Below the pieces are notes generated by a model that did not search any database, was not told where the DNA came from, and was given only the letters and a program-made list of their open reading frames with translations. Source: Candidatus Thorarchaeota archaeon (GTDB taxonomy: Archaea; Asgardarchaeota; Thorarchaeia; Thorarchaeales; Thorarchaeaceae). Taken from it: 32,799 nt of DNA. This document shows positions 5,683 through 16,134 of this stretch, one piece after another. The position numbers and the translations under genes are program-made. The number at the start of each line of letters is the position of its first letter. Position 1 is the first letter of the stretch. The stretch lies in assembly GCA_018238825.1 (NCBI GenBank), contig JABCSP010000003.1, forward strand, positions 1-32,799, given 5' to 3'.

Positions 5683-5706
5683 ACCTCAGTTTATTTCTTC
5701 ATCGGT
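5683..5706 (-). promoter_or_regulatory. Candidate C/D-like K-turn / k-loop in rpl7ae 5' leader
   Basis: Minus strand reads ACC-GATGA-AGAAATAAA-CTGA-GGT: flanks ACC/GGT pair, box D is CTGA, and box C-like CCGATGA matches RUGAUGA at 5 of 7 positions. It is 2 nt upstream of the ATG at 5680. Confidence 0.5.
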
Positions 5707-7502: not shown

Positions 7503-7592
7503 TCTAGGTAACAGCACTAGTTCATTGTATTAGAGGTGTTTCTAGCTTCATCCTTAGGACAATGCTTTTATGCAGAGAAAAAACAAACCAAC

Positions 7593-7677
7593 TTACCCAA
7601 GGCATGGGCGAAAGAGCCCTCTGGTCGGTTTAGACCATATGGCGAGTCCATCCTGGAAGAACATGTCTTTTGGGTAA
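7593..7677 (+). ncRNA. Candidate cloverleaf-like structured RNA / 5' leader of the rpoD operon
   Basis: Closing stem TTACCCAA+GGCATG (7593-7606) / CATGTC-TT-TTGGGTAA (7662-7677) encloses three hairpins: GGGC-gaaaga-GCCC, TGGTC-ggttta-GACCA, ATGG-cgagt-CCAT. A TTTTATG box lies about 25 nt upstream. Confidence 0.55.
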
Positions 7678-7699
7678 ACCTCCGCGGTCAGGTGAGTCA

Positions 7700-8500
7700 A
7701 TGGAAATCACAATCATTCGCAAGCAAGAAAACATCATTCACTTCTTAGCTGAAGGATTAGATGTTGCCTTTGCCAACGCGCTTAGGAGAACCATGCTTAC
7801 TAGATTGCCGGCGATGGCAATAGATGAAGTACTAGTCCTTGAGAATACTAGTGTCATGTACGATGAGATGTTAGCTCATAGAATGGGACTTTTACCTCTA
7901 GTAACAGATTTGGAGAGTTACAATCTCCCAGAGGAGTGTGACTGTGAAGGAAAAGGTTGTAGCCTTTGCCAATGTACACTCACACTGGAGAAACAAGCCG
8001 GTGATGAAGAAGAAATAGTCTATTCTCGCGACCTATCGTCACAAGACCCGAAAATTATTCCTGCATTAGGTGAGATTCCCCTGGTGAAACTTGCCCCTAA
8101 TCAACGTCTAATTATTGAAGCATATGCTCGTCTTGGAAAGGGTGTAGAAAACGCAAAGTTCCAACCAGTTTCAACAGTATCATACAAGTATGTGCCGATT
8201 ATCGAAGTGAATAAAGACAAGTGCAATCAATGTGGGGATTGTGTCAAAGTATGCCCGAAGAATATCCTTCTCGTTGAGGGTGATACAATTGCGACACAAA
8301 ATACTCTGGACTGCAGTTTCTGTGAGGCATGCGTTGAAGTCTGTGAACCCGGAGCAATCACAATAGATTCTAAGAAGAACAGTTTTCTGTTCAAGGTTGA
8401 ATCCACAGGAGCCTTGTCTCCTGAAGAAATTGTTGAAAAATCAGCCGAGATTCTCAAAGAGAGAATAAGATTGGCATTAGATTACGCAAATTCAATATGA
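7700..8500 (+). CDS. rpoD: DNA-directed RNA polymerase subunit D with intact 2x[4Fe-4S] ferredoxin-like domain
   Basis: 'VAFANALRRTMLTRLPAMAID'; CNQCGDCVKVCP and CSFCEACVEVCEP motifs. ATG 7700 follows GGTGAG, so the TTG at 7670 in the ORF track is unlikely. Confidence 0.95.
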   Translation: MEITIIRKQENIIHFLAEGLDVAFANALRRTMLTRLPAMAIDEVLVLENTSVMYDEMLAHRMGLLPLVTDLESYNLPEECDCEGKGCSLCQCTLTLEKQAGDEEEIVYSRDLSSQDPKIIPALGEIPLVKLAPNQRLIIEAYARLGKGVENAKFQPVSTVSYKYVPIIEVNKDKCNQCGDCVKVCPKNILLVEGDTIATQNTLDCSFCEACVEVCEPGAITIDSKKNSFLFKVESTGALSPEEIVEKSAEILKERIRLALDYANSI

Positions 8501-8511
8501 GGTGTGCCAGC

Positions 8512-8883
8512 ATGGAGAGATCTATTAGATCCGGACCAACGGACCCAAATACACGCGCGCTGATTAATGCGCTCAGAAAAACATCTTCAAAACATGATGT
8601 TAGAATATGGAAACGAGTTGCTGAGCTTGTAGGCCGGCCCACTCGGAAGCGTCCTACTGTTAATGTAGGAAAGATTGAACGATATACTAACGCAGGCGAT
8701 ATAGTTGTAGTACCTGGAAAAGTTCTAGGTTCTGGAAACATGTCGCATAAGGTAACAGTTGCAGCACTAAATGCATCTTCTACCGCAAGATCTGCGATAG
8801 TTGGAGCAGGTGGCTCACTAATCTCAATTGATGAGCTATTGAAGCAGATTCCGAAAGGGAGCGGTATTACGATTATTGTGTAG
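8512..8883 (+). CDS. rpl18e: 50S ribosomal protein L18e
   Basis: 'RSGPTDPNTRALINALRKTS...WKRVAELVGRPTRKRPTVNVGKIERY'; GAGGTG upstream of ATG 8512. Confidence 0.95.
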   Translation: MERSIRSGPTDPNTRALINALRKTSSKHDVRIWKRVAELVGRPTRKRPTVNVGKIERYTNAGDIVVVPGKVLGSGNMSHKVTVAALNASSTARSAIVGAGGSLISIDELLKQIPKGSGITIIV

Positions 8884-8892
8884 GTGATTCAT

Positions 8893-9345
8893 ATGAGTAC
8901 AGACACGATCAAAGTTTACGATGCCGAGCAAATGGTTGTTGGCCGACTCGGTTCCAAAGTTGCAAAGGCAGCGATATTGGGTGATAATATCGTCATAATA
9001 AATGCGGAAAAGGCCATTATCACTGGTGATCCAAGAACACTAATTGCAGCATGGAAAGAGAAATTCAATATTCGCACCTCTTACAAACCATGGAGAGGTC
9101 CATTCCATCACCGTCGACCGGATAAAATGGTACGAAGGATGATTAGAGGAATGCTTCCATGGCCAACCCCACGAGGTAAGGCTGCATACAAGCGTATCAA
9201 GGTGTACATTGGAACTCCTGAGCAATACGCAGATTCTGAAAAGATAGTATTGGAGAAATCACGCTACAGAAGCATGACACAGAAGCATATCAAGGTGCTA
9301 GAACTTAGTCAAGAACTAGGTTGGACACATCCGGAGGTTGCATGA
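8893..9345 (+). CDS. rpl13: 50S ribosomal protein L13
   Basis: 'VVGRLGSKVAKAAILGDNIVIINAEKAIITG...RRMIRGMLPWPTPRGKAAYKRIKVYIG'. Confidence 0.96.
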   Translation: MSTDTIKVYDAEQMVVGRLGSKVAKAAILGDNIVIINAEKAIITGDPRTLIAAWKEKFNIRTSYKPWRGPFHHRRPDKMVRRMIRGMLPWPTPRGKAAYKRIKVYIGTPEQYADSEKIVLEKSRYRSMTQKHIKVLELSQELGWTHPEVA

Positions 9346-9346
9346 A

Positions 9347-9745
9347 ATGAAAGTAGTAGTCAGTACAGGTAAGAGAAAAACCAGTCTTGCTAAAGCAACA
9401 GTTAGGGACGGTACCGGTCGAATTAGAATCAATGGACGACCTCTGGAAATTCATCAACCAGAGCTTGCACGAATGAGAATCATTGAACCTTTGATACTCT
9501 TTGGTGATGGCTGGAAACGCTATGACATCAAAGTGAGGGTTAAAGGAGGCGGTTTTATGAGTCAAGCTGATGCAATCCGAATGGCGATAGCAACAGGCTT
9601 GATTCGAATGAGCCAAGATTTTGAGGCTCGTTCAAAGATGATTGAACACGATAGAACGATGCTCGTCGGTGATCCCAGACGAACTGAACCAAAGAAGTTC
9701 GGTGGCCCTTCAGCGCGTTCAAGATACCAGAAATCATACAGGTGA
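9347..9745 (+). CDS. rps9: 30S ribosomal protein S9
   Basis: '[29 protein letters not shown]...[13 protein letters not shown]'. Confidence 0.96.
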
Positions 9746-9755
9746 TGGGAAAGAA

Positions 9756-9971
9756 ATGATTATTCCAGTAAGATGTTTCACTTGTGGCAAAGTAGTAGCG
9801 GACAAATACGACCAATTCAAGCGTGAGGTCAGACAAGGAGAAGACCCAGCCACAGTTTTGGATAACCTTGGATTGAACAGATATTGTTGTCGAAGAATGC
9901 TACTCGCACACATTGACATTATTGACAGCTTCATGGCATTTGCCACAATACCCCCAACGGAGGGAACTTAG
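9756..9971 (+). CDS. rpoN: DNA-directed RNA polymerase subunit N
   Basis: '[21 protein letters not shown]...[18 protein letters not shown]' from ATG 9756. The longer ORF in the track is over-extended. Confidence 0.97.
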
Positions 9972-9974
9972 AAT

Positions 9975-10610
9975 ATGAGTGATTCAATTAACGATTCCGA
10001 AGATATGCTCGTGGACATGGATAAGTTCCTCGCGGCCGGAGTCCACATCGGAACCCAAGTAAAAACGCAGGATATGGAACCCTTTGTCTACAGACAACGC
10101 CCAATCGGTCTATACGTGCTTGACGTTCGTAAGACTGATGAGAGGGTAAGAGTAGCTGGAAAGTTCTTGGCTCGATTTGATCCTTCCAAGATTGTAGTGG
10201 TATCTGGTCGTGTCTATGGTAAAAGACCAGTTGAAACCTTTTCCTACTACATTGGAGCTAGTGCTTTCACAGAGAGATTTGTTCCTGGTACCCTAACCAA
10301 TCCAAACATTGCAGGACCACGAACTTACATTGAGCCAGATGTAGTGGTACTCACTGACCCCCGTACGGATCAGCAGGCGCTCAATGAGGCTGCAAGAATT
10401 GGAGTACCTGTAGTTGCATTATGTGATACTGATAACGTAACAACAAACATTGATCTTGTTATTCCTACGAACAACCGTGGTCGGAAATCACTTGCATTAG
10501 TATACTATCTTCTAACTACTCAGGTTCTGAAAGAGAGAGGCGATATGCCTGAAGATGGCGAGCCCGTATACACACCAGATGACTTTGAACCACAAGTACA
10601 GAGGTTCTGA
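9975..10610 (+). CDS. rps2: 30S ribosomal protein S2
   Basis: '[50 protein letters not shown]'. Confidence 0.96.
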
Positions 10611-16035: not shown

Positions 16036-16134
16036 TGGTGGGCCGGACGAGATTTGAACTCGCGATCCCTTGGATTTTCGCCAGAATTTGAATGGTTCCG
16101 AACCAAGAATCATACCAATCTAGACCACCGACCC
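16036..16134 (-). tRNA. tRNA-Pro(CGG) with 22-nt intron (16075..16096) at position 37/38; 3' CCA encoded
   Basis: Minus strand GGGTCGG...CCGGCCCACCA; D-arm, anticodon stem CTTGG/CCAAG, T-arm GCGAG-TTCAAAT-CTCGT. Intron sits in a textbook bulge-helix-bulge: TTCG/CGAA central helix, 3-nt bulges GA|A and AA|T, CCA/TGG inner helix. Confidence 0.95.

Follow-up and report, generated by a model that had tools for sequence, protein, structure and literature searches.

A conserved RNA element 5' of the Thorarchaeotal rpoD-ribosomal protein operon and its probable role as a leader

What is the structured stretch immediately upstream of rpoD in a Thorarchaeota archaeon, and does it act on the operon that follows? 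The window, i.e. the whole stretch of 32,799 nucleotides analysed here, carries rpoD, the archaeal counterpart of the gene for bacterial RNA polymerase (RNAP) alpha, as the first gene of an operon that otherwise encodes ribosomal proteins (r-proteins) and one further RNAP subunit. An earlier note, drawn up from the letters of the window, had described here a cloverleaf-like RNA and proposed either a new archaeal r-protein/RNAP leader or a processed small RNA. As laid out below, the explanation we find best is that of a Thorarchaeota-specific leader serving as a translational-feedback operator, to which we assign a rough probability of 0.6. The element and the genes downstream are arranged as follows:

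7595..7675, + strand: the whole rpoD leader RNA element (covariance model R2, E = 3.9e-18)
7690..7696, + strand: Shine-Dalgarno sequence AGGTGAG of rpoD, conserved as GGTCAGGTGAG; mean predicted pairing with the element only 6%
7700..8500, + strand: rpoD, RNAP subunit D with 4Fe-4S motifs, gene 1 of the operon (Pfam RNA_pol_L, RNA_pol_A_bac, Fer4)
8497..10610, + strand: remainder of the operon, L18e, L13, S9, rpoN and S2 (Pfam matches)

On its 5' side, the element adjoins an Arf-like GTPase gene (Pfam). In several other Asgard families, S13-S4-S11 lie directly 5' of rpoD. In Thorarchaeota, S13 is located away from rpoD, S4 and S11 are presumed to accompany it by the usual gene order, and S4 is absent from the Pfam-based gene list of the rpoD operon in the window. 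Elsewhere in the window are an archaeal SRP RNA gene (1823-2132, + strand; Rfam RF01857, 111.8 bits) and a tRNA-Phe(GAA) gene (16036-16134, - strand; ARAGORN), whose 99 bases give enough length for an intron.

Occurrence of the element

Two covariance models were used, the first built from the rpoD upstream regions of 30 Thorarchaeota (window genome included), all 30 of which contain the element, and the second (R2) from 46 sequences. With either model, 46 of 47 Thorarchaeotal-family genomes gave a single strong copy, the exception being a genome without rpoD in its assembly (G219). Every rpoD-bearing Thorarchaeota genome (46/46, from 13 genera) thus has exactly one copy, always just 5' of rpoD. 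The same searches returned the element in none of the 181 other genomes of the phylum, and a sensitive search with the filters off found nothing convincing in the rpoD regions of other Asgard families. Weak distant copies in family f18 (G066, G067) lay inside a kinase-like coding region, were put down to chance and were gone with model R2. Nor did whole-genome model searches place a second copy before S13.

Pattern scanning across 84,980 prokaryote species returned Thorarchaeota, two otherwise-labelled MAGs and four bacterial matches. One of the MAGs is named only "archaeon"; the other, a "Lokiarchaeota" (L093), matches a genome of the Thorarchaeotal family (G032), and its name is a labelling matter. 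The bacterial matches fall in GC-rich genomes, in about the number that chance gives, and were discarded. By these searches, the element is specific to Thorarchaeota and not a leader of archaea in general.

One assembly seemed to offer a natural experiment, with rpoD detached from the r-protein genes. In this genome (G036; locus L086, contig C1, ~9282-10118), rpoD is followed by a cut-off L18e gene and unrelated genes on a single-contig assembly. The arrangement looks like a misjoin and not like biology, and the case is uninformative, since L18e is cut within the apparent misassembly.

An irregular hairpin with an invariant internal loop

Folding of the stretch beats 200/200 dinucleotide shuffles (z = -3.07), and comparison of the rpoD upstream regions of relatives, which the earlier note had recommended, revealed both conservation and compensatory changes. 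As judged from the alignments, what is conserved is a single long hairpin of irregular build, interrupted by an invariant internal loop that resembles a kink-turn, and composed of these parts:

7595..7602, + strand: closing stem P1, 5' strand RCCCARGR (98.9% standard pairs)
7604..7609, + strand: helix P3, 5' strand AYGGGC (standard pairs in 276/276 cells)
7610..7615, + strand: internal loop, long side GANNGA (mostly GARWGA), four bases and then GA, kink-turn-like
7616..7620, + strand: stem P4, 5' strand GCYNN (compensatory double changes)
7621..7638, + strand: variable apical hairpin, of differing length among species (alignment A2)
7639..7643, + strand: stem P4, 3' strand NNRGC (pairs with the P4 5' strand)
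7644..7645, + strand: internal loop, short side GA (G53 and A54 invariant, 46/46)
7646..7651, + strand: helix P3, 3' strand GUCYRU (pairs with the P3 5' strand)
7652..7667, + strand: conserved 3' linker CCGGGA..RUGUC, with no unique pairing (alternatives: the 5' strand, as P2, or UCC)
7668..7675, + strand: closing stem P1, 3' strand UUUUGGGU (pairs with the P1 5' strand)

The stems are supported to different degrees. P4 accumulated 15 independent compensatory double changes (by parsimony on the rpoD protein tree), and P1 two, in each case a CG pair replaced by UA, at separate positions and in separate lineages. P3 is never broken and varies by single wobble changes only. Between P3 and P4, hardly any variation is seen in the GANNGA/GA loop or in the C:G and G:C pairs that flank it; on the long side, G16, G20 and A21 are identical in 46/46 sequences and A17 in 44/46.

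This architecture retains some, yet not all, of the helices that had been read from the single sequence. The complementary arms TTACCCAA (7593-7600) and TTGGGTAA (7670-7677) are present, but the two outermost pairs (7593-7594 with 7676-7677) of the 8-bp closing stem drawn between them lack conservation and are situated upstream of the transcript start predicted at ~7595. Among three supposedly perfect hairpins inside, the first (GGGC/GCCC) is peculiar to the window genome and a few close relatives: its fourth pair can form in just 4 of 46 sequences, and covariation links its 3' half to a different strand. The second is real, but belongs to a longer stem that covaries, of which it forms the variable tip. 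The third (UCC/GGA) is possible in most species, although it lacks compensatory support and competes with a better-supported helix. With its first hairpin unconserved and contradicted by the covariation of P4, the cloverleaf geometry has to be abandoned. Similarly, a GGCATG/CATGTC stem is plausible, yet broken in several species and the rival of a helix that never is.

Some of the bases of P1 and P3 are also claimed by an alternative helix, P2 (columns 7-11 with 72-76), in which several species have broken pairs. The model energies of the P2 and P3 alternatives are nearly equal; the region may therefore switch, or a protein may lock it on binding. In one element (L161, genome G221, 606-686), the 5' CCC has become CUC and both downstream GGG have become GAG, a joint change that, as a single case, weakly hints at alternative pairing of the 5' strand with either GGG.

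As the earlier note had it, the element is not a tRNA: ARAGORN gives none at this place, there is no Rfam tRNA match, and neither source supports a permuted tRNA. The advised comparison with Rfam 15 matched no family at its gathering score and nothing real even at E <= 10, the sole match up to E = 10 being to an antisense snoRNA family with a score far under the threshold. The riboswitch-like invariance of loop and linker, together with the competing helices P2/P3, could also suggest a small-molecule riboswitch controlling the operon. Such invariance exceeds what a simple stem needs and would suit a small-molecule sensor, which counts against r-protein feedback. However, no Rfam riboswitch matched, and the model searches found the element in one gene context only, before a housekeeping operon and never before metabolic genes, which makes a riboswitch improbable.

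Transcript start, strand and position before rpoD

Whether the element belongs to the rpoD transcript can be judged from its promoter, as a TATA-like sequence had been pointed out upstream and is indeed there:

7566..7571, + strand: TATA box TTTTAT with a BRE-like stretch just 5' of it; TTTAT begins 27-29 nt before element position 1
7595, + strand: predicted transcription start, the first base of the closing stem (fixed TATA distance, sharp conservation onset; A or G in 46/46)

The spacing between the TATA box and the first closing-stem base holds in every species scored. The BRE/TATA region stands out as a block of its own, with conservation of 0.58-0.72 in columns -40 to -21 vs 0.26-0.31 farther upstream, and mean pairwise identity rises from 0.40 just upstream of the element to 0.83 at the first closing-stem base. 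Owing to this fixed distance and the conservation step at position 1, the transcript is predicted to start with the structure. In one genome (G022), a divergently transcribed gene lies directly 5' of the element, so that element and rpoD need a promoter of their own there.

With regard to the strand, the aligned stems contain 207 G.U and 2 A.C pairs when read in the rpoD sense, and the functional RNA should therefore be the rpoD-sense strand. We strongly infer both the transcript start and this orientation from the aligned sequences. A DNA operator, for which the arms as inverted repeats could be taken, is strongly disfavoured by the same excess of G.U over A.C pairs as well as by the variable-length tip and the covarying inner stems.

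On the 3' side, the arms end 22 nt before the rpoD ATG at 7700, as described previously, and in every genome where the start codon could be located it lies 23-33 nt 3' of the element. No separate rpoD promoter was seen between the two. These observations speak against the processed small RNA of the earlier note. A stand-alone RNA that lies before rpoD by chance would fit the compact shape and own promoter of the element, but in 46 genomes it never occurs apart from rpoD, and we regard this explanation as very improbable. An upstream ORF was dismissed too, an ATG being found within the element in just 20 of the 46 species. The element is thus probably the 5' leader of the rpoD-L18e-L13-S9-rpoN-S2 transcript. 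Its occurrence in 46/46 genomes, the fixed TATA distance, the compensatory changes and the sense-strand wobble bias strongly support the structured cis leader that had been envisaged for this operon, and its location, its confinement to a single operon and its riboswitch-like invariance make it very likely that the leader acts in cis.

Alternatively, the leader could act without any ligand, as a constitutive 5'-end element, its terminal stem shielding the 5' end of the mRNA or determining how ribosomes load. The coincidence of the predicted transcript start with the stem would fit such a role. Yet a plain stabiliser needs no invariant internal loop and linker across 13 genera, and we deem this option unlikely.

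Candidate ligands and known leader systems

While the existence of the element, its conservation and covariation and its single location are shown by the sequences, we infer that it regulates its operon, and that it would do so through repression by a bound protein, for which candidates are named below. Bacterial uL13 and uS2 are autogenous translational repressors that act on structured 5'UTRs, the uS2 operator excluding the ribosome-binding site (PMC10931766). Besides, a predicted Bacteroidia L13 leader precedes rplM-rpsI and rpsB (PMC7247131), and the same L13-S9-S2 gene set is present in the rpoD operon. On account of these precedents, feedback by an r-protein of the operon is our first choice and, by analogy, rather likely, while naming uL13 in particular would be a tentative guess. 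A search for rRNA mimicry, covering LSU and SSU rRNA, yielded nothing above chance, the few 10-13-base resemblances being at chance level, and hence does not point directly to any ligand. Such mimicry is not a required feature of r-leaders.

The ribosome-binding site had been called exposed, and AGGTGAG at 7690-7696 is indeed not predicted to be hidden by the leader. With the mean pairing given above, built-in sequestration of the Shine-Dalgarno sequence can be set aside, and any repression must therefore be protein-induced. In the mechanism we propose, transcription would start at the first base of the element, and the mRNA 5' end would therefore be tied up in P1. The leader would comprise P1, the P2/P3 region with its competing registers, the GANNGA/GA loop, P4 and the variable tip, with the ribosome-binding site just 3'. 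A protein, most probably an r-protein of the operon (uL13 or uS2 by precedent), would bind the invariant loop and the linker when it exceeds rRNA, and once bound might hinder 30S loading at the adjacent Shine-Dalgarno sequence. A bolder and rather doubtful version sees a new RNA class, either an L7Ae-type four-base kink-turn or a metastable P1/P2/P3 switch, through which one free r-protein would control RNAP subunits D and N plus four r-proteins, and which would have arisen when the Thorarchaeotal rpoD split from S13-S4-S11.

The main rival as a ligand is L7Ae, which would freeze the hairpin beside the ribosome-binding site and tie polymerase and ribosome synthesis to the level of free L7Ae. 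The internal loop resembles a kink-turn (C-GANN-GA-G / C-GA-G): all sequences (46/46) keep the bases of the predicted tandem G.A/A.G pairs as well as the C:G pair that precedes the bulge, k-turns typically have C:G at this place, and the next pair, G:C, would, by published rules, make folding protein-dependent (PMC6298567). Archaeal L7Ae represses mRNAs via leader k-turns (PMC5539422), and an L7Ae gene lies 2 kb upstream of the element on the opposite strand (Pfam). On the other hand, the favoured register has a four-base bulge (GANN) in place of the usual three, whereas the L7Ae leader itself, in the same genomes, has a normal three-base k-turn, and the conserved 3' linker and P1 would be left unexplained. 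We therefore hold L7Ae to be an unlikely ligand. The k-turn of the L7Ae leader in the window is CCGATGAAGAAATAAACTGAGG (5684-5705, - strand), which lies just 5' of the L7Ae start and reads as a canonical three-base kink-turn that overlaps the Shine-Dalgarno sequence; judged by its sequence, it is probably the known L7Ae autoregulatory leader, and its pattern, CC[AG]ATGAAG...C[AT]GAGG, recurs in four further genomes of Thorarchaeota.

Archaea have so far yielded few cis-acting leader RNAs, and our literature searches found none described in the Asgard lineage, which stands close to the origin of eukaryotes. The element sits on an operon that links RNA-polymerase and ribosome production, and it occurs where the S13-S4-S11-rpoD order of other Asgard families is broken; it therefore provides a case for testing how regulation evolves anew after the splitting of an operon. 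It is compact and highly conserved, and lends itself to direct tests in vitro.

Among known systems, the bacterial alpha-operon S4 leaders (before rpsM-rpsK-rpsD-rpoA or rpsD-rpoA) are comparable in that their operon holds the RNAP alpha homologue, but S4 is not in the Thorarchaeotal rpoD operon and the structure is different. With the bacterial uL13 r-leaders before rplM-rpsI(-rpsB), the element shares a lineage-restricted, structured 5'UTR, an operon with L13, S9 and S2, and likely translational feedback; it differs in being archaeal, in preceding rpoD as the first gene, in having no Rfam match in sequence or fold, and in having candidate ligands only. The archaeal r-leader candidates of Eckert and Weinberg 2020 concern L4, eL15 and S15 only; like the present element, they are archaeal, lineage-specific and predicted by covariation, yet none of them precedes rpoD or is reported in Asgard archaea (PMC7247131). 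L7Ae autoregulatory k-turn leaders (PMC5539422, PMC6298567) are likewise archaeal 5'UTRs with tandem G.A pairs and a C:G pair before the bulge, near a Shine-Dalgarno sequence, whereas the rpoD element has a four-base bulge, a larger structure, a different gene and a Shine-Dalgarno sequence outside the hairpin. No published description of the element was found in literature searches that covered a minority of subscription journals. Taken together, the element is best read as a new leader-RNA family among the leaders of ribosomal and RNAP operons.
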